From positions 24,953 through 88,952 of the IMG/VR virus record IMGVR_UViG_3300032278_002257: a DNA stretch of 64,000 nt; one strand, given 5' to 3'. The position numbers and the translations under genes are program-made. The notes beneath the pieces were generated by a model. It was not told the DNA's origin. It saw only the letters and a program-made list of their open reading frames with translations, and searched no databases. Source of the stretch: a virus. How positions within the stretch are numbered: the first letter of the stretch is position 1; the number at the start of each line of letters is the position of its first letter. Shown here in pieces: positions 24,067 through 52,333 of this stretch.

Positions 24067-25647
24067 ATGGCACAATTTAGTTTATTTGGATTTAAGATCG
24101 GAAAAAAGGATGAAGAAAAGGAACTATTAGCTTTTGCTAAACCTGATGATCTTGAAGGAACCTTTGATATAGCATCATCGTATGGAATGTCTGCAGGTGG
24201 TGCTTATGGTACTTATATTGATATGGAAGGTACTGCCAAAAATGAGGCAGACCTCATTAGCAGATATAGAACGATGGTTTTACAACCAGAGGTCGATATG
24301 GCTATAGATGATATTGTAAATGAGGCTATAGTTACTGGAAGAGATGTTCCAGCAATTTCAATTGCGTTACATAATTTAAATGTTACAGATAAAATCAAAG
24401 CCAAAATTTCAGATGAATTTGCAGAAATTATGAGACTTTTAGATTTTAATAATAATGGTTATGATATTTTTAGAAAATGGTATGTTGATGGTAGAATTTA
24501 TTATCAATGTGTTATTGATCCAGCTGACGCTTCTGCAGGATTACAAGAATTAAGATTTGTTGATCCCCTTAAAATAAGAAAAGTTAGAGAAAGAAAAAAA
24601 CCAGAACAAAATGTTCCACGAGAAGCTACATTAAAGAAAGACATGTCTGGTGAATATTATGAATATTATTTGTATCAGGATAAACCAATGTCTAATCAAC
24701 CTAATAAAATGGGCGTTGGAGATTATTCTAAAAAGCAACTGAAGATCGCTCCTGATATGATTGCATATGCTGGTTCTGGTGTTACTAATGCTGGTAGAAA
24801 AATGGTCATTTCTCATTTACATAAAGCGATCAAATCATTAAATCAGTTAAGAATGATTGAGGATTCTTTAGTTATTTACAGAATATCGAGAGCACCAGAA
24901 AGAAGAATATTTTACATTGATGTTGGTAATTTACCTAAAATGAAAGCGGAACAGTATCTTAGAGATATTATGCAGCGTTATAAGAATAAATTAATTTATG
25001 ATGCGGATACTGGAGAAGTTAGAGATGATAGAAAAATAATGACAATGTTGGAAGATTACTGGTTGCCTCGTAGAGAAGGTGGTAGAGGTACAGAAATTAC
25101 AACATTGCCGGGAGGACAAAATCTTGGAGAAATTGATGATATACAATATTTTCAAAGAAAATTATATAAATCATTAAATGTTCCTGTTTCAAGATTAGAA
25201 ACGGATGCCAGTTTTACTTTAGGTAGAGCGACAGAGATAACTAGAGACGAGTTAAAGTTTACCAGGTTTGTAGAAAGATTAAGAAAGAAATTTACTATTT
25301 TATTTGATGCTTTACTTGAAAAGCAACTAAGAATGAAAAATATAGTTGCCAAAGAGGATTGGGCTAAAATGAAAGAAAGGATTCATTATAGTTTTGAATC
25401 TGACTCTCATTTTTCTGAATTAAAAGAGGCTGAAATGTTAACCAATAGAGCTACACTTCTTAGAGATTTAGATGATTATGCAGGAAAATATTTCTCTGCA
25501 GAATTTGTAAGAAGACACATTTTGAGACAAAGTGAAGAAGAGATGGCAGAATTGGATCAACAGATGGCTCAAGAAAAGAACGATCCTAAATATAACAATA
25601 ACGACGACGACCAAGGCGGCGGTTTTGGTGGCGGCAGAGGATACTAA
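24067..25647 (+). CDS. 20: Portal protein gp20
   Basis: Head portal vertex protein, 526 aa, almost the same length as T4's 524. Familiar segments are 'MVLQPEVDMAIDDIVNEAI', 'RRIFYIDVGNLPKMKAEQYL', 'MTMLEDYWLPRREGGRGTEI' and 'LNVPVSRLETD', the last two being the classic conserved primer regions of marine g20. The C-terminus is acidic and Gly-rich. It forms the dodecameric ring for DNA entry and nucleates prohead assembly. It begins after a 41-bp gap with an AGGATAT ribosome site. Confidence 0.96.
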   Translation: MAQFSLFGFKIGKKDEEKELLAFAKPDDLEGTFDIASSYGMSAGGAYGTYIDMEGTAKNEADLISRYRTMVLQPEVDMAIDDIVNEAIVTGRDVPAISIALHNLNVTDKIKAKISDEFAEIMRLLDFNNNGYDIFRKWYVDGRIYYQCVIDPADASAGLQELRFVDPLKIRKVRERKKPEQNVPREATLKKDMSGEYYEYYLYQDKPMSNQPNKMGVGDYSKKQLKIAPDMIAYAGSGVTNAGRKMVISHLHKAIKSLNQLRMIEDSLVIYRISRAPERRIFYIDVGNLPKMKAEQYLRDIMQRYKNKLIYDADTGEVRDDRKIMTMLEDYWLPRREGGRGTEITTLPGGQNLGEIDDIQYFQRKLYKSLNVPVSRLETDASFTLGRATEITRDELKFTRFVERLRKKFTILFDALLEKQLRMKNIVAKEDWAKMKERIHYSFESDSHFSELKEAEMLTNRATLLRDLDDYAGKYFSAEFVRRHILRQSEEEMAELDQQMAQEKNDPKYNNNDDDQGGGFGGGRGY

Positions 25648-36992: not shown

Positions 36993-37778
36993 ATGTTATT
37001 AAAACAATTACACAAAATAACTGCATCTGAATTTGTCGCAGATAGACATTATTCTGCAGTAATGCCAAGACTTACAAAATATTTTCTTGGATGTTTTGTT
37101 GAAGAAGAATTAGTAGGTGTGATCACATTTGGTTGGGGCACAAGACCAAAACATACAATTCAAGCATTATTTCCAGAATTGAACACAAAAGATTATTATG
37201 AAATTGGTAAAATGTGTATGGATGATTCTATGCCTAAAAATAGTGAATCACAAATGTTGTCAATGGCAGTTAAGTGGTTAAGAGAAAATACAGATATCAA
37301 ATATCTTTTTACATGGGCAGATGGAATCGTAGGTAAGCCAGGATATGTGTATCAGGCTGCAAACTTTCTGTATGGTGGATTTTCTATAACAGATACCTAT
37401 GTTACTGAAACTGGCGAGAAAGTACATCCAAGAACTCTACAAGGAATTCTACCAAATAAAGAAGGTTTGAAGTATGGTCATAGACCCAATTTTGAACAAT
37501 TGAGGGATTTGAAATTGAGTAGAGTTAAAGGAAAGCAATTCAGATACATTTATCCTATGACTAAGAAAGATAGAAAATATTTGAAAAAATCAACAGTTGT
37601 GTGGGGATTGAATCATCCTAAACATACAGATTTGGAATGGACAGTAAAACTTCCTGGTGAAACAAAATATGCAAAGACTCAAACAATGCCATTTGATTTA
37701 ACAAAAGAATTAGAATATAATAAGAAAAATATAGCTAAATATAGAAGCGAATCAAATTTAAATAAATTTTTTAAATGA
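36993..37778 (+). CDS. Mom-like DNA-modification/acyltransferase-fold protein (copy 1)
   Basis: A 261-aa protein resembling phage Mu Mom and its relatives, a GNAT-fold family that adds a methylcarbamoyl group to adenine in DNA. Key elements in order are a 'DRHYS' start of the core, 'FLGCFVEEELVGVITFGWG', 'YEIGKMCMDDSMPKNSESQML' (quoted by its parts YEIGKM, PKNSES) and 'YLFTWADG...GYVYQAANF', matching Mom's EL-R, GNGES and SYADP...GTIYQA elements. The C-terminal ~100 residues are basic and add 'GLNHPKHTDLEW'. It starts 7 bp after the tRNA. A paralogue lies at 51.6 kb. DNA modification is inference. Confidence 0.65.
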   Translation: MLLKQLHKITASEFVADRHYSAVMPRLTKYFLGCFVEEELVGVITFGWGTRPKHTIQALFPELNTKDYYEIGKMCMDDSMPKNSESQMLSMAVKWLRENTDIKYLFTWADGIVGKPGYVYQAANFLYGGFSITDTYVTETGEKVHPRTLQGILPNKEGLKYGHRPNFEQLRDLKLSRVKGKQFRYIYPMTKKDRKYLKKSTVVWGLNHPKHTDLEWTVKLPGETKYAKTQTMPFDLTKELEYNKKNIAKYRSESNLNKFFK

Positions 37779-44173: not shown

Positions 44174-45127
44174 ATGGAAATAAAAATACAAGTTGAAGAG
44201 TTAAGAAAAAAGCGCGTCTTTGTAGCAACTCCTATGTATGGTGGAATGTGTTCAGGAATGTACACAAGATCTGCTATAGATACTGTTACGCTTGCTACAA
44301 AATATGGTATGGATTTAAAGTTTTTTTATTTGTTTAATGAATCTTTAGTTACCAGAGCAAGAAATTATCTAGTTGATGAATTTTTGAGAGCTGAACAATA
44401 TACACATTTAATGTTTATTGATTCTGATATCGCTTTTAATCCTGAAGATTTAATTTCTCTTGCAGTTTTATGTGATGGAAAAGAAAAATCAATTGTTGGC
44501 GGGCCATATCCTAAAAAAACAATTGCTTGGGAGAAAGTTCGTAACGCAGTTGATAGAGGTTTGGGTGATGCGACCCCAATGGACTTAGAAAAATATACAG
44601 GAGATTTCGTATTTAATCCTGCAGGAACTACCAAAGATGGAAAGATAAAATTAGATGAACCATTAGAAGTTTTGGAAGTTGGAACAGGATTTATGATGAT
44701 ACATCGTTCTGTATTTGAAAAATATAGAAAGGCTTATCCAGAACTTAGTTATAAACCAGATCATAATAGAACAGAACATTTTTCAGGAGATAGATATATT
44801 CATGCATATTTTGATACTATCATAGATAATGATCAATGGATGCCTGGAGGTAGTTCAAATAAAACAGATCGCTATCTTTCAGAAGATTATATGTTTTGTC
44901 AAATGGTTAGAAAGATTGGTATATCAACTTGGTTATGCCCTTGGATGGAAATACAGCATGTTGGACATTATGTTTTTCATGGTACAATGAAAGATCTTGG
45001 AAAATTACAATATGCGTCTCATGGAATGGATTTAGAAACCAGACCATTTCATGAAGAAAGAAAAGAGAAACTTGGTAAACTGTCAAATAAAAATAGAAAA
45101 AAATCTCCCAAAAGGAGAATAAAATAA
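44174..45127 (+). CDS. GT-A family glycosyltransferase
   Basis: A 317-aa glycosyltransferase with the GT-A order: N-terminal 'VFVATPMYGGMC', then the metal-binding D83-S-D85 in 'MFIDSDIAFNP', and 'VEVGTGFMMIHRSVFEKY' plus 'YLSEDYMFCQMVRKIG' (SED acidic motif). The C-terminus has a His-rich 'MEIQHVGHYVFHG'. No membrane segment, so it is cytosolic. The acceptor may be phage DNA, a virion protein or host glycan. It lies just after a terminator and lacks an evident promoter of its own, so it may depend on read-through. Confidence 0.78.
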   Translation: MEIKIQVEELRKKRVFVATPMYGGMCSGMYTRSAIDTVTLATKYGMDLKFFYLFNESLVTRARNYLVDEFLRAEQYTHLMFIDSDIAFNPEDLISLAVLCDGKEKSIVGGPYPKKTIAWEKVRNAVDRGLGDATPMDLEKYTGDFVFNPAGTTKDGKIKLDEPLEVLEVGTGFMMIHRSVFEKYRKAYPELSYKPDHNRTEHFSGDRYIHAYFDTIIDNDQWMPGGSSNKTDRYLSEDYMFCQMVRKIGISTWLCPWMEIQHVGHYVFHGTMKDLGKLQYASHGMDLETRPFHEERKEKLGKLSNKNRKKSPKRRIK

Positions 45128-45871: not shown

Positions 45872-46066
45872 GTGGCTGCAAAGAAAAAGAAAAAGACACA
45901 AAAACAAACCAAACTTTTTAATATAGTTTTTAGAAGAGTTGGAACAAAAATGACGTTAACTAGAGTATTTAAAACAAAAAAAGAAGCTACTGCTGAAGCT
46001 GAAATTGTGAAAGAAAATAAAACGTTAGAATTTATAGAAATTACTGAAACAAAAGTTGGTAAATGA
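45872..46066 (+). CDS. Small basic protein between clamp and clamp loader
   Basis: A 64-aa lysine-rich protein, GTG start at 45872 with a strong AGGAGG ribosome site. After a poly-Lys N-terminus (AAKKKKKTQ), the body 'LFNIVFRRVGTKMTLTRVFKTKKEA' looks like a small beta hairpin domain. No family recognised. Its stop overlaps gp44's ATG (ATGA). It may bind nucleic acid or polymerase; unproven. Confidence 0.6.
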   Translation: MAAKKKKKTQKQTKLFNIVFRRVGTKMTLTRVFKTKKEATAEAEIVKENKTLEFIEITETKVGK

Positions 46067-47001
46067 ATAAAGATATTCTTTGGGTAGAAAAATACCGTCC
46101 TCAGAAAATACAAGACTGTATTCTCCCCAATGGCATTAAAACTTCTTTACAAGAATTTGTGGATAATAATCATGTGCCAAATCTTTTGCTTTCTGGTGGA
46201 GCAGGAGTTGGTAAAACAACTTCCGCAATTGCATTATGTAGAGAAACCGAATCTGATTATATTATTATTAATGGTTCTGAAGAATCTGGAATTGATCTTT
46301 TAAGGTCTAAATTAGACCAATATTGTTCTTCTGTTTCTATGACGGGAGGAAGAAAAGTTGTTATAATTGATGAGGCGGATTATCTTAATCCCGCATCAAC
46401 TCAACCTGCTATGAGAGGATTTATAGAAAGATTTTCTTCTAATTGTTCTTTCATTTTTACTTGCAACTTTAAAAATAGAATTATTGAACCAATACATTCA
46501 AGATGTGCGGTTATTGATTATAAAATTAGTAAAAAGGATTCTCCAACCATTGCATCAGATTTTTTTAAAAGAATTGTTTCTATTTTACAAAAAGAAAATA
46601 TTGAATTTGAAGAGAAGGTTGTTGCTGAATTAATTAATAAATTTTTTCCAGATTTCCGCAGAGTTTTGAATGAACTTCAGCGGTATGGTTCTTCTGGTAA
46701 AATTGATGTTGGAATTCTTTCATCAATTTCTGATCAGTCAATAGATAATTTATTAGGAATGTTGAAACAGAAAAAGTTTAATGATATGAGAAGGTGGGTT
46801 ACTGAAAATTTAGATAATGATTCTACAAAGATTTTTAAAAAATTATATGACGCATTGAGTCTTACAGCAGTTGAAACTTCATTACCTTCAATTATACTAT
46901 CACTTGCTGATTATCAATATAAGGCGGCTTTTGTCGCAGACCAAGAATTAAATATGGTAGCATGTTTAACGGAAGTAATGTCTGATGTTGAATTTAAATA
47001 A
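46063..47001 (+). CDS. 44: Clamp loader large subunit gp44
   Basis: AAA+ clamp-loader ATPase, 312 aa (T4: 319). 'WVEKYRPQKIQDCILP' opens the protein; Walker A is G45-G-A-G-V-G-K-T-T53, Walker B 'VVIIDEADYL', sensor 1 'FIFTCN' and the S-R-C motif 'IHSRCAVI' complete the set. With gp62 it opens gp45. It overlaps both neighbours. Confidence 0.96.
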   Translation: MNKDILWVEKYRPQKIQDCILPNGIKTSLQEFVDNNHVPNLLLSGGAGVGKTTSAIALCRETESDYIIINGSEESGIDLLRSKLDQYCSSVSMTGGRKVVIIDEADYLNPASTQPAMRGFIERFSSNCSFIFTCNFKNRIIEPIHSRCAVIDYKISKKDSPTIASDFFKRIVSILQKENIEFEEKVVAELINKFFPDFRRVLNELQRYGSSGKIDVGILSSISDQSIDNLLGMLKQKKFNDMRRWVTENLDNDSTKIFKKLYDALSLTAVETSLPSIILSLADYQYKAAFVADQELNMVACLTEVMSDVEFK

Positions 47002-48148
47002 AGAAGAAACTTTAAATATTTACGAAGATTATATTGGATTTTATGATGAATTTGCTGATATAGAAACATATTATCGATATAAAAAGCGAAAGAGGTTAGA
47101 AGGGCTACCAAGCTCTCTTTCGCTATTTGGGCTTGGTCCTGAGGATGATCTCTTTAATTCTCCGGAACTTGCCCCTGAAGATATGGAATTTGAAATTGTC
47201 CATACTTCAGATAAACCTGCCGAGGGGAAATTATTAACAAAAGACTACACCACTTTGTTAGAATTGACAGCGAGTTTTAATGCTGACAATTCCCCTGGCA
47301 GGTCTTCTCGTTTTGGTATTAGAGAAAAAACTACTGGAAAATTTGTAGGATTTATTAAATTAGGTTCACCAGTTATTAATATAAAACCGAGAAATGTATA
47401 TTTTCAATGTAAACAAACCCCACTAAAAATTGCTAATAAACATTTTGTTAATGGATTTAATATTGTGCCATCACAACCATTTGGATTTAATTGTCTTGGC
47501 GGAAAGTTAATTGCATTAATTTGTGTTTGTCATGAATTGAGAGAATTTGTAAATAACAAATATGATGAAATGGAGGCATTGTTTTTTGAAACAACATCAT
47601 TATATGGTTCAATTAAAAATATGAGTCAGTATGATGGATTGAAACCTTATATTAGACATAAAGGTAATACAGAAAGTAAATTACTTTTAAATCTTTCTGA
47701 TGAAGTGTATAAGAAAACAAGAGTATTTCTTGAAGAGAAGAATGATGGAAAGCCATTGGTTCAAGATGATCAAGCGATTCCAACAAGTAGAAAGTTCCGC
47801 ACACAAGGAAAAATACTTTCTATTCTTAAAGAACATTTAAAAAAATATGATACAGAAAAATATAATAATCTTTTGAAAATTGTTAAAGAGAAAATGGCAA
47901 TTACTACTCAAAAAAGATATTATATTTCTGATTATGGGTATGAAAATACTAAAGATTATATTTTTGGTAATACTGGTGAGTTGATCAAAAAACCAAATTT
48001 TGATAATTTTTATTTTGATAATATTGTAAATTGGTGGAAAAAGAAGGCTCAGAAAAGATGGGAAAATATAAAGGCAGATGGTAGGTTGAGAAAAGATTTA
48101 GAATTTTGGACATTAGATAATATTGATAAAATTGATATAATAAGATGA
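46985..48148 (+). CDS. DUF4338/DruA-like protein
   Basis: A 387-aa protein inserted in the replication block. The middle shows a pattern seen in the DUF4338 family, which includes DruA of Druantia defence: 'GKFVGFIKLGSPV', later 'FVNGFNIVPSQPFGFNCLGGKLIALICVCHEL' (about 160-190; key NIVPSQ, GGKLIAL) and 'ALFFETTSLYGSIKNMSQYDGLKPY'. That family shares a GNAT-like core with Mom proteins. The C-terminal third is Lys-rich and helical. It overlaps gp44 and the next gene. No other defence genes are near, so a phage-specific role, for example in DNA modification, is more likely (inference). Confidence 0.6.
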   Translation: MLNLNKEETLNIYEDYIGFYDEFADIETYYRYKKRKRLEGLPSSLSLFGLGPEDDLFNSPELAPEDMEFEIVHTSDKPAEGKLLTKDYTTLLELTASFNADNSPGRSSRFGIREKTTGKFVGFIKLGSPVINIKPRNVYFQCKQTPLKIANKHFVNGFNIVPSQPFGFNCLGGKLIALICVCHELREFVNNKYDEMEALFFETTSLYGSIKNMSQYDGLKPYIRHKGNTESKLLLNLSDEVYKKTRVFLEEKNDGKPLVQDDQAIPTSRKFRTQGKILSILKEHLKKYDTEKYNNLLKIVKEKMAITTQKRYYISDYGYENTKDYIFGNTGELIKKPNFDNFYFDNIVNWWKKKAQKRWENIKADGRLRKDLEFWTLDNIDKIDIIR

Positions 48149-49530
48149 GTTTATTTGATGACATTGAAATAAAAAGAGACTGTTATCAAGTTTTAGTTGT
48201 ACCAAATATAACATACCAAAAAGATATTGATAAAGATTCTTTTGTTAAGTTTTTTTCAGATTTGGTTAGAGAACTTAATAAAATCAGAGATGATTTGATT
48301 TGGCATGTTCCACTTACTGCATATTCTCGTCTTTTGAATATTCCTAATGTGGTACAATATACCAATCTTAGATTACCAACTTATCCAAATTCAATGCGGG
48401 GATACTTTGATCATAATGCGTGGTTGAAGATTGTTGATTGGAAACATAAAGATTTTGATTTTGTATTTTCACAATTGCCAGAGTGGACTGTTAATATATC
48501 AAATTTTTTATCTAATGCTACCCATTTTGGAAGACTCCCAATTATTGGATATTGTCACTGGACTGAAACTAAAGAGTTCGCAAAATATGCTAGAACGTAT
48601 TTGTCATATAATTTACAAGGAACATTGGAGATGTTGGAGTGTGGATTAAATACTCAAACACAAATAAGAAATATTATTAATAATGAAGCATCTCAGTGGT
48701 TTAATTCTGAAACTATAAAGAAATTATCTTCTATTATGAAACCACATTATATTGGTGTAAATGATGAAGATATTGCGAAAGATATATGTAAAGAGCCAAA
48801 TAAAACAATTGTATTTAATCATCGTTTAAATAATTATAGAAATTATCCATTTTTTCTAGAAGCGATTCGCGAGTTAAGAAAATTGAGACAAGATTTTACT
48901 GTCTGGTGTTCTTTAGCAGATAAAAAGGATGAGGAATATTTTGACATAGAGGGGGTATCATTAAAGGAACCTTATTTAGCAAAATTAAATAAAAGTTATC
49001 TTGGAATTTTATGTGGAAACCGCTGGGCTATATCCGCTCAAGATGGAATGGCACAAGGATTACCATATCTGTATGAAGAGAGTGAAGAAAATGCAGAATT
49101 GTTTGGTGGATTAGATTCACCACTGAATATGTCAGGAAAATTTAAAACAAAAGATGACTTGGTTAGTTTAATGAATCATTATTTAAATGATCTGGATGAT
49201 AGAAATATGTTTGCAACAGCTACTTTAAATTATTCAAAAGATGTGATGGCGTGGTCAAATAGAATCAAATCATATAATGATATGATTAATAAGGCGACTA
49301 CTGGTTTGACTCCTGTAACAGAAAAGAGTGAAGCAATTAAAAAAATCTTGACATTTATTGATAGACATGGTAAAGTAAGTAAGAATGAAATTATGAAACA
49401 TATTGGGTGGGGAGTTGGTATTACATTTTCACCATATAGACAATATTTAAGAAATCATCCTACAATAGAATTAGAGTGGGATGGACAAACTGAATATTAT
49501 TGTTATAAGGATAATGATGAATCCATTTGA
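48145..49530 (+). CDS. GT-B glycosyltransferase with C-terminal winged-helix domain
   Basis: A 461-aa protein. Residues 1-385 look like a GT-B glycosyltransferase: 'QVLVVPNITYQ' strand, 'IGYCHWTE' in the first Rossmann half, and in the second 'TIVFNHRLNNYRNYPFFLEAIREL', 'GILCGNRWAISAQDGMAQGLPYLYEE' (about 290-315), the region that binds the nucleotide sugar. Residues ~395-455 (ILTFIDRHGKVSKNEIMKHI ...) read as a winged helix, suggesting nucleic-acid contact. A DNA glycosyltransferase is therefore attractive. It lies between gp44/DUF4338 and gp62. Confidence 0.65.
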   Translation: MSLFDDIEIKRDCYQVLVVPNITYQKDIDKDSFVKFFSDLVRELNKIRDDLIWHVPLTAYSRLLNIPNVVQYTNLRLPTYPNSMRGYFDHNAWLKIVDWKHKDFDFVFSQLPEWTVNISNFLSNATHFGRLPIIGYCHWTETKEFAKYARTYLSYNLQGTLEMLECGLNTQTQIRNIINNEASQWFNSETIKKLSSIMKPHYIGVNDEDIAKDICKEPNKTIVFNHRLNNYRNYPFFLEAIRELRKLRQDFTVWCSLADKKDEEYFDIEGVSLKEPYLAKLNKSYLGILCGNRWAISAQDGMAQGLPYLYEESEENAELFGGLDSPLNMSGKFKTKDDLVSLMNHYLNDLDDRNMFATATLNYSKDVMAWSNRIKSYNDMINKATTGLTPVTEKSEAIKKILTFIDRHGKVSKNEIMKHIGWGVGITFSPYRQYLRNHPTIELEWDGQTEYYCYKDNDESI

Positions 49531-49912
49531 ATTTATAAATGATATAAATTTTGGAAAAAAGAATCTTTTTAAAGATGATGATAAGAATATCATTGAAAAG
49601 GATTATAATTCTTTTATTATCAATAGAGGATTAAGTTATTTTGTTGATACTGTTCTTTATGCAAATGAGATGAATCTTAGACATGAATCGAGCAAAAGGA
49701 TGCAGAATGATTATTTATTATATTCTATTAGAAAAAAGAAAAGATTTTCAAAATGGGCTAAATCAGAAAAATTAGAAAGAATAGAAACAATAAAACAATA
49801 TTTTAATTATTCTAATCAGAAGGCAAAGGACGCATCTGATATAATATCTGATAATCAATACAATGAAATAAAACAAGCATTTGAACAGGGTGGAACTACC
49901 AAAAGTAAGTAA
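49517..49912 (+). CDS. 62: Clamp loader small subunit gp62
   Basis: Clamp-loader subunit that joins gp44. Start taken at ATG 49517 (MNPFEFINDINFGKKNL), with AAGG at suitable distance; ATG 49514 is one codon upstream. This gives 131 aa, shorter than T4's 187, as in marine relatives. Landmarks are 'INRGLSYFVDTVLYANEMN' and 'LLYSIRKKKRFSKWAK', which are conserved in marine gp62. Followed by a late core and regA as in T4 order. Confidence 0.88.
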   Translation: MNPFEFINDINFGKKNLFKDDDKNIIEKDYNSFIINRGLSYFVDTVLYANEMNLRHESSKRMQNDYLLYSIRKKKRFSKWAKSEKLERIETIKQYFNYSNQKAKDASDIISDNQYNEIKQAFEQGGTTKSK

Positions 49913-51168: not shown

Positions 51169-51660
51169 ATGGTAACAACTAGCGCACTCGCGAATTTTCC
51201 ATTCGCACGACCCCAAGATATAGAAAGAGCATTAAATGTTTCTGTCGGATTTGATGGAATATTTAATCGTTTATTTGATGATCTTGGTACAGTTCATCAT
51301 TCAATCAATAGTGGTGGATTTCCCCCATACAATCTCAAAAAAGATGGATATAAGTATCTAATTGAAATGGCTGTAGCAGGCTTTTCAAAAGATGATATTT
51401 CTGTTCATGTTGAGAATGGTGTATTAACCGTTTCTTCTAATGAGAAACAAACTGTAAATGAATCCCATGAATTTGTACATCAAGGAATTGCAACAAGAAC
51501 ATTTAAACGTTCTTGGACAATTGCTGATGATGTTGAAATAAAAGATGCGGATCTTGTTGATGGTATGTTAACAATACATTTGGAGCAAATCATCCCTGAT
51601 TACAAGAAACCACGTGAGATCCCAATCGGCGGAAAAGCAAGAAAAGCTATCAAAGGCTGA
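51169..51660 (+). CDS. hsp20: Small heat shock protein Hsp20
   Basis: Alpha-crystallin family chaperone, 163 aa, similar to the Hsp20 found in most marine T4-like phages. N-terminal 'FDGIFNRLFDDL', then the crystallin domain with 'YLIEMAVAGFSKDDISVHVENGVLTVSS' (about 62-88) and 'TFKRSWTIADDVEIKDADLVDGMLTIHL' (about 108-135; key FKRSW, DGML). A perfect AGGAGG-type site precedes the ATG. Its end overlaps a GTG-start gene by 47 bp. Proposed roles are in virion assembly or host proteostasis. Confidence 0.94.
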   Translation: MVTTSALANFPFARPQDIERALNVSVGFDGIFNRLFDDLGTVHHSINSGGFPPYNLKKDGYKYLIEMAVAGFSKDDISVHVENGVLTVSSNEKQTVNESHEFVHQGIATRTFKRSWTIADDVEIKDADLVDGMLTIHLEQIIPDYKKPREIPIGGKARKAIKG

Positions 51661-52333
51661 TTATACAGTCGAGCCCATAGAAACAAGAGCAGCATTGGAT
51701 ATAGTGATAAAAAATCATTATCTTCATCGTGTTGCCCCATGTTCTAAGGCTTATGGCATTTTTGAAAAAGGTGGGTTCTTTGGAGGAACATTAAAGGGTG
51801 TCGTTTGCTACGGAGTTCCCGCCTATAATCCAATCCTCAAATCCCTTTGTGGTGCGGATGAAATGAATAATATCTATGAGTTGACAAGACTCTGGATAGA
51901 CGATGCTGTACCTAAAAATGGAGAAAGTTTTCTTATCTCAAATTCAATTAAAAAATTGGATAAAGAGATTATAATATCTTATGCCGATTCATCAATGAAC
52001 CATTTGGGCACAGTTTATCAATCATCGAATTGGCATTACATAGGAATGAATAAAAGACATACTTCAGATCTTGCAATAAAAGGTTTGGATTTACATCCTG
52101 CAAGTATTACTGATAAATTTAGAGGACAAAAGAACAGAGTAGAAAAGCTCATAGAGATGTTTGGAGAAGAAAATATATATAGAAGAGAGAGATCTTTAAA
52201 GTTTAGATATGTTGTCTTTAATGCAAATAAAAGACGTAAAAGGGAACTAATAAAGAAATTAACTTATACTATTTTGCCATATCCAAAGGAAATCGAAAAA
52301 GGAGACAATGATGGAAAACTTACGACTAAGTAA
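51614..52333 (+). CDS. Mom-like DNA-modification protein (copy 2)
   Basis: A 239-aa protein, GTG start inside hsp20's end, as no ATG precedes the conserved core. It aligns better than copy 1 with Mu Mom: 'IKNHYLHRVAPCSKAYGIFEKG' (about 32-53; key NHYLHR), 'YELTRLWIDDAVPKNGESFLIS' (key ELTRL, PKNGES) and 'ISYADSSMNHLGTVYQSSNW' (SYAD, GTVYQ). Mom creates N6-methylcarbamoyl-adenine and blocks restriction. The C-terminus is basic. It is followed by a 26-bp overlap with an M15 peptidase. DNA modification is inferred from family, not shown here. Confidence 0.7.
   Translation: MRSQSAEKQEKLSKADYTVEPIETRAALDIVIKNHYLHRVAPCSKAYGIFEKGGFFGGTLKGVVCYGVPAYNPILKSLCGADEMNNIYELTRLWIDDAVPKNGESFLISNSIKKLDKEIIISYADSSMNHLGTVYQSSNWHYIGMNKRHTSDLAIKGLDLHPASITDKFRGQKNRVEKLIEMFGEENIYRRERSLKFRYVVFNANKRRKRELIKKLTYTILPYPKEIEKGDNDGKLTTK

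Follow-up and report, generated by a model that had tools for sequence, protein, structure and literature searches.

Glycosylation of phage DNA is known from T4-like phages. According to the accessible text of PMC13216743, the alpha- and beta-GT of T4 have the GT-B fold, and TAGT (beta-glucosyl-HMC-alpha-glucosyltransferase, PF20691) of T2 and T6, which is a GT-A enzyme, adds a second glucosyl group onto alpha-glucosylated cytosine. Mom of phage Mu represents another kind of DNA modification, momylation, which is of the GNAT type. Mom-REase fusions are described in jumbo phages in the available part of PMC7824862. DUF4338, the domain found in the DruA family, is termed a GNAT domain in a paper on phosphorothioation systems (PMC10853773, partial text).

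The window analyzed here is a stretch of 64,000 nucleotides, positions 24,953 to 88,952 of the virus record IMGVR_UViG_3300032278_002257 (88,952 bases). It includes a glycosyltransferase gene, called GTB here, which an earlier note had taken for a candidate DNA glucosyltransferase. DNA glycosyltransferase is still the best reading of GTB. The T4-type route implied by that note is unlikely, and GTB is found linked to a gene of the DruA family instead. It is proposed, with a probability of roughly 0.55, that GTB belongs to a new family of phage DNA glycosyltransferases and performs the second step of a two-enzyme DruA-GTB DNA hypermodification. The features concerned, all on the + strand, are as follows.

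36993..37778, +, second Mom-like protein (phrog_1384 9.1e-42)
44174..45127, +, phrog_1574 protein, GT-A-like, beside gp45 (weak Pfam matches)
46063..47001, +, gp44, clamp loader large subunit (PF21328/phrog_168)
46985..48148, +, DruA/DUF4338-family protein, predicted partner enzyme (PF14236 3.7e-10; phrog_19197 4.8e-113)
48145..48148, +, ATGA overlap of the DruA stop and the GTB start (sequence)
48145..49530, +, GTB, GT-B/GT4-like glycosyltransferase with a winged-helix-like tail (ORF, AlphaFold2 model, fold matches)
48178..49308, +, GT-B catalytic body of GTB, aa 12-388 (range of VIA-align matches)
49327..49509, +, winged-helix-like tail of GTB, about aa 395-455 (secondary structure, conservation, charge, tail-pattern scan)
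49481..49912, +, gp62, clamp loader small subunit (PF16790/phrog_225)
51614..52333, +, Mom-family DNA-modification protein (PF25680 2.1e-42; phrog_1384 8.6e-53)

The GTB ORF starts with ATG and encodes 461 aa. Searched alone, the window protein had no match to a sequence family in Pfam, PHROG, NCBIfam or the PDB. Among 54 aligned relatives, PF00534 is matched by 14 (best 9e-8) and PF13524 by 17, so that the GT4-type Pfam match exists at the level of the family and not for the window protein itself. An AlphaFold2 model based on the 54-sequence alignment has pLDDT 88.4 and pTM 0.87. This larger alignment was needed, as the fold obtained from a 3-sequence alignment was useless (pLDDT 41). Residues 11-388 of the model match the GT-B/GT4 structure 7qsg_A (Z 27.9, 342 residues aligned, rmsd 3.0), and BshA, MshA and PimB' are matched with Z 24-25. 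The two Rossmann-like domains align end to end with GT4 structures. By its predicted structure, GTB is a GT-B fold, GT4-like glycosyltransferase (GT4 matches at Z 24-28), and the GT-B assignment of the earlier note is supported.

Residues invariant in 54/54 GTBs include H138-W139, N225-H226-R227, Y231, W294, D300, G305, P307, and E318, and such conservation is what an active enzyme would be expected to show. An EX7E-type motif with two acidic residues is a GT4-type feature. By eye, the invariant D300 and W294 lie at the expected place of the second acidic residue of this motif, and the residue at -8 in the same comparison is N292 in the window GTB.

The C-terminal tail lies outside the GT4-aligned range. 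In the model it consists of helices at 396-408, 413-420, and 429-437 and strands at 410-412, 441-445, and 450-454. This H-E-H-H-E-E order is that of a winged helix, which agrees with the domain type proposed before for the tail. The tail motif GWGxxIxFxPYRxxL is invariant in 54/54 GTBs. Of the 19 cluster representatives, 18 have a basic tail (the window GTB has a net tail charge of -1), whereas the GTB body is acidic in 17 of the 19 clusters. A tail profile found no convincing relative among PDB sequences (best E 0.33). Pfam gave six weak matches, two of them to winged-helix families: TP6A_N (5.8e-4, in one of 11 members) and TFIIE_beta (0.058, likewise in one of 11). Because the PDB search found no convincing relative and the Pfam matches are weak, the tail is treated here as a putative DNA-binding domain.

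GTB is a large marine-phage family without a name and with a uniform architecture. Searches by tblastn with three members, the window protein and two others, against 50,697 GenBank phage records gave no significant match (there was one chance match at E 9), and no relatives were found in GTDB genome contigs. Viral contigs contain near-identical and 72%-identical copies of the window GTB. A scan of viral contigs with the tail motif written as a degenerate DNA pattern gave at least 119 stretches. Every listed frame that begins inside its contig is an ORF of 444-466 aa with the motif near its C-terminus, indicating that the tail is part of the enzyme family and not a local fusion. Among the matches listed, there are at least 65 distinct full-length proteins in at least 19 clusters at 85% identity, and the representatives of the other clusters are 31-72% identical to the window GTB. 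The contigs are mostly fragments, and many of the relatives are close to one another. No paper recognized in the open-access literature deals with the GTB family, with pairs of DruA and a glycosyltransferase in phages, or with phage HY126.

The earlier note did not mention that a DruA-type gene precedes GTB with a stop-start overlap. The product of this gene matches PF14236 with 39.9 bits (cut-off 27), and so do all 17 of the aligned DruA homologs. The name DruA comes from the Druantia defence system. Judged from the ATGA overlap, translation of the two genes is probably coupled. The linkage was counted over 48 distinct GTB proteins with 1 kb or more of DNA upstream: the 122 loci (8 duplicate-contig loci first removed) gave 113 GTBs, of which 54 with <1 kb upstream and 11 identical proteins were dropped. 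Among these listed matches, DruA is found immediately upstream in 36/48, with a zero-gap stop-start overlap in 36/36, and two to four genes upstream in another 8/48. The other four have no DruA in the DNA examined. In L131, DruA is located a few genes upstream of that stretch, and the 5-kb contig L091 includes little DNA upstream of GTB. No DruA exists across the 49-kb record of L092, whose close kin L047 has DruA about 7.5 kb upstream of GTB. In L027, GTB adjoins a PurA gene, and no DruA is found across the 38-kb record. PurZ was considered for this PurA gene and rejected; the protein passes the NCBIfam cut-off for adenylosuccinate synthase and is far below that for PurZ.

Divergence matrices of DruA and GTB from 27 representatives are correlated (r 0.73), and 0 of 2000 permutations gave a value as high. 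Note that many of the linked proteins are related, so that the 36 pairs are not 36 independent events. The pair occupies the gp44-gp62 gap in some genomes, follows gp43 in others, and is also found next to hsp20 and among structural genes, as well as in contigs in which no T4 replication genes were detected. GTB had been described as encoded between clamp-loader genes. The location is correct (gp44, DruA, then GTB and gp62); as evidence for function it does not stand, since the gp44-gp62 gap is one site of several and the clamp-loader position is incidental.

DruA is far more common than GTB. A scan of viral contigs gave at least 600 matches. In GenBank, DruA is present in 31 phage records, which come almost entirely from cyanophages and pelagiphages. 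The isolate Synechococcus phage S-SSM7 has it between gp44 and gp62, and the cultured Pelagibacter phage HTVC008M has DruA with a homolog of F330, a 330-aa family found downstream of DruA and unrelated to GTB. Downstream genes were counted for the best 80 of the at least 600 DruA matches, and the 19 of the 80 with <1.5 kb downstream were left out. Within four genes of the remaining 61 DruA genes, which as best-scoring matches describe near relatives only, GTB is found in 24, F330 in 15, both in 0, and no looked-for family in 22. Five contigs of this set (L143, L144, L145, L154, and L155) are also in the GTB set, and without them GTB follows DruA in 19/56 instead of 24/61. DruA is often without GTB and GTB is rarely without DruA. 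From this nested pattern, DruA would seem to act by itself or as the first enzyme. F330 matched nothing in Pfam, PHROG, NCBIfam or PDB. Comparisons by hhalign with GTB, TAGT, and the window GT-A protein gave no similarity (probabilities <1%), and F330 is therefore not claimed as a glycosyltransferase.

Other genes for DNA modification are found around GTB both in the window and in its relatives. As the earlier note had pointed out, the window has two Mom-like proteins and a GT-A-like protein next to gene 45. Mom at 51614-52333 matches PF25680 with 145.5 bits (curated cut-off 27.1), and homologs of the other Mom-like protein flank DruA-GTB-Mom in two loci (L139 and L140). The assignment of the phrog_1574 protein to GT-A is based on a weak match to PF13506 (4e-4), which is below the cut-off, and this gene upstream of gp45 is conserved also in phages such as phiM12. 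TAGT was not found in the window's 89-kb record, and neither the window GT-A protein nor GTB has profile similarity to TAGT (hhalign probabilities <1%). In relatives the DNA-modification neighbourhood is wider than had been claimed. Mom is located directly 3' of GTB in five loci (L109 and L138-L141). In the fetched loci, 11 of 11 TAGT genes are downstream of GTB (6) or F330 (5), for example in L042 and L156; since the loci were fetched for GTB or DruA, this shows an arrangement and not a genome-wide association. Between DruA and GTB, some relatives have EcoRI-like (PF02963 5e-11), D12 methyltransferase, or cytidylyltransferase-like genes, or GmrSD_N and weak HNH proteins (GmrSD_N above the cut-off in L180 and below it in L181). 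Several more intervening genes resemble GIY-YIG, ParB-like or PD-(D/E)XK nucleases by eye, without a family match. For some of these nuclease-like genes, homing endonucleases are an ordinary alternative explanation. In L217, GTB is preceded by genes for RmlA-, RmlB-, and RmlD-like proteins and for a C-methyltransferase (for the C-methyltransferase and the epimerase, the near-identical L092 was used in the scan). Such sugar-nucleotide genes beside GTB equally fit surface-glycan synthesis.

The coupling to DruA together with Mom, TAGT, and restriction-modification-type genes beside GTB supports the DNA-modification reading. In the proposed pathway, the DruA-type GNAT enzyme, made from a translationally coupled mRNA, would act first on a DNA base and, by analogy with Mom, might acylate an exocyclic amine or add a similar group to it. 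GTB would then use its C-terminal winged helix to bind the DNA and move a sugar from a nucleotide-sugar donor onto the DruA-modified base, with retention of configuration as would be expected from a GT4-like fold. In some relatives a further sugar would follow, added by TAGT. So modified, the phage DNA would be protected from host nucleases. DruA would thus make the acceptor for GTB. A comparison of the DruA and Mom profiles (hhalign probability 12%, E 0.0023, one 23-column stretch) faintly backs such a role. The weak similarity of DruA and Mom is also counted against the DNA-hypermodification reading, along with the absence of a convincing PDB match for the tail profile, the net charge of -1 of the window tail, and the two GTB loci (L027 and L092) without DruA.

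The acceptor base had rightly been left in doubt by the earlier note, which saw no cytosine hydroxymethylase in the window. The thymidylate synthase/dCMP-hydroxymethylase family, PF00303, was not found beyond the window either, across the 89-kb record, in which the absence of a gene means little, as the record is smaller than the 147-233 kb genomes of the related isolates fetched. The records of 15 of 16 GTB relatives, which are fragments and include one of 164,845 bases, also lack PF00303, and the exception is one record (G004) with a PF00303 protein. These absences make a T4-type acceptor unlikely. Tet_JBP had no match in the records of the 16 relatives or the window's own, in a search where the controls were equally silent. 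GTB could, in a T4-like route, act on hydroxymethylated or hydroxylated pyrimidines, with the enzyme for these located in an unsampled part of the genome or in the host and DruA being an unrelated neighbour. The shared GT-B fold of T4 alpha- and beta-GT, the TAGT partners of some relatives, the PF00303 protein in G004, and the fragmentary 89-kb record would agree with this. It is nevertheless improbable in view of the 15 records without PF00303, and it leaves the linkage to DruA unexplained. Furthermore, the 54 GTB members matched 20 Pfam families at E up to 0.1, and AGT is none of these. The analogy with T4 AGT/BGT drawn before is therefore weak in detail, and GTB is probably dependent on DruA rather than acting on hydroxymethylcytosine. 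T4 AGT and BGT do not appear among the 50 fold-search matches shown for the GTB model, which is not counted against a structural relationship.

Another explanation is that GTB alters LPS of the host or a virion protein and that its tail is a protein-interaction domain. In the accessible portion of PMC7029224, glycosyltransferases of pelagimyophages are interpreted as O-chain (LPS) enzymes, one reason being that, of more than 100 SAR11 genomes, a single one encodes a restriction-modification system. The RmlA/B/D-like and cytidylyltransferase genes that adjoin some GTBs point in the same direction, and so do the closest folds, which are GT4 enzymes for small molecules, lipids, and glycans. A surface or virion glycan, however, would explain neither the stop-start coupling to DruA and the invariant winged-helix-like tail nor the Mom, TAGT, and restriction-modification genes alongside and the sites in the replication module, and this explanation is considered unlikely. 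A counter-defence role of the DruA-GTB pair, in which RNA (e.g., tRNA) or nucleotide pools would be modified instead of genomic DNA, is very doubtful: GNAT and GT enzymes act on RNA too, DNA and RNA targets are not told apart by sequence, and DruA takes its name from a defence system, yet the DNA methyltransferase, EcoRI-like, GmrSD_N, Mom, and TAGT neighbours favour DNA.

If GTB is indeed a DNA glycosyltransferase paired with DruA, abundant ocean phages would glycosylate their DNA without the hydroxymethylcytosine route, by a family without named relatives. DruA, the namesake gene of a defence system, would gain a testable chemistry. The LPS reading of SAR11 myophage glycosyltransferases would have to be revised for the GTB family, which is a candidate exception. 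More tentatively, and with the odds against it, DruA-family GNATs in general may be DNA base modifiers. DruA and GTB would then form a new class of hypermodification, in which the sugar is placed on a GNAT-installed group rather than on a hydroxyl or hydroxymethyl group. This class would be widespread in marine T4-like and other phages, with an exchangeable second enzyme (GTB or F330), extendable by TAGT, and sometimes combined with nucleases as a restriction-modification-like cassette. DruA of Druantia would, in that case, gain a function as well.

In comparison with known enzymes, MshA, BshA, PimB', and the 7qsg mannosyltransferase share their fold with aa 11-388 of GTB (Z 24-28); they have only 9-14% identity to GTB, and their substrates are small molecules, lipids, and glycans. 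Glycosyltransferases of the Arthrobacter phages Kitkat and BeatusComedenti (BFVD) match about the whole of GTB with a Foldseek TM-score of 0.78 at 13-14% identity. The proposed role of DruA resembles momylation by Mu Mom as a GNAT-type DNA modification, and Mom genes adjoin GTB in the window's kin. The accessible literature text names no glycosyltransferase partner of Mom, whose sequence similarity to DruA is weak. The jumbo-phage Mom-REase fusions are reminiscent of the nuclease genes that separate DruA from GTB in some relatives. TAGT of T2 and T6 differs from GTB in being a GT-A enzyme, and its homologs are the ones located downstream of GTB or F330. T4 alpha- and beta-GT, which are likewise phage enzymes of T4-like genomes, share the GT-B fold and the proposed action on phage DNA. 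Unlike them, GTB is without AGT sequence membership and, in 15 of 16 records, without a detected member of the dCMP-hydroxymethylase family, and it has the extra winged-helix-like tail and the coupling to DruA.

Between DruA (the DUF4338-family gene proposed as partner) and GTB (the candidate DNA glycosyltransferase), some viral loci carry additional genes:

L180:4988-6427, GmrSD_N (DUF262) + HNH-like protein
L181:5359-6816, GmrSD_N (DUF262) + HNH-like protein
L216:3342-6781, 514-aa protein, EcoRI-family endonuclease and D12 adenine methyltransferase

The genes in L180 and L181 are type-IV-restriction-like genes within a modification gene pair, and those in L216 look like an R-M system embedded in the module. 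Other loci have further genes beside GTB:

L109:5331-11229, two Mom (DNA-modification) genes clustered with DruA, GTB and another GT-B-like gene, the cluster adjoining a DNA polymerase gene
L217:3307-7196 (record G004), RmlA-, RmlB- and RmlD-like genes together with a C-methyltransferase gene, immediately preceding GTB; DruA lies ~7.5 kb farther upstream
L027:7225-8388, PurA-like adenylosuccinate synthetase adjoining GTB

The Rml-like and C-methyltransferase genes possibly allow the phage to make a dTDP-deoxysugar donor. DruA was not found in the 38-kb record of L027. By eye, a neighbouring gene there is bacterial-looking.

Another family, F330 (~330 aa), is strongly conserved and sited downstream of DruA. 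HTVC008M, a cultured Pelagibacter phage with DruA, has an F330 homolog as well as two 2OG-Fe(II) oxygenase genes:

L146:2561-3550, F330
L158:4612-5604, F330
HTVC008M (KC465899) 84548-85546, F330 homolog
L020:923-1474 (HTVC008M), 2OG-Fe(II) oxygenase, upstream of gp45
L020:3917-4474 (HTVC008M), 2OG-Fe(II) oxygenase, between gp44 and gp62

Besides the L146 and L158 copies, F330 has 17 more matches. It matched nothing in Pfam, PHROG, NCBIfam or PDB, and none of the fetched loci has F330 and GTB together. Its C-terminus appears GT-B-like by eye.

The fold matches of GTB include a solved "phage HY126 glycosyltransferase" (PDB 9iqz and 9ir0), for which no paper was found in the open-access PMC library searched. 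The window has another glycosyltransferase-like gene:

44174-45127, phrog_1574 GT-A-like gene, adjoining gp45

This gene is also kept in Sinorhizobium phiM12-type phages, Caulobacter Cr30 and Stenotrophomonas DLP6.
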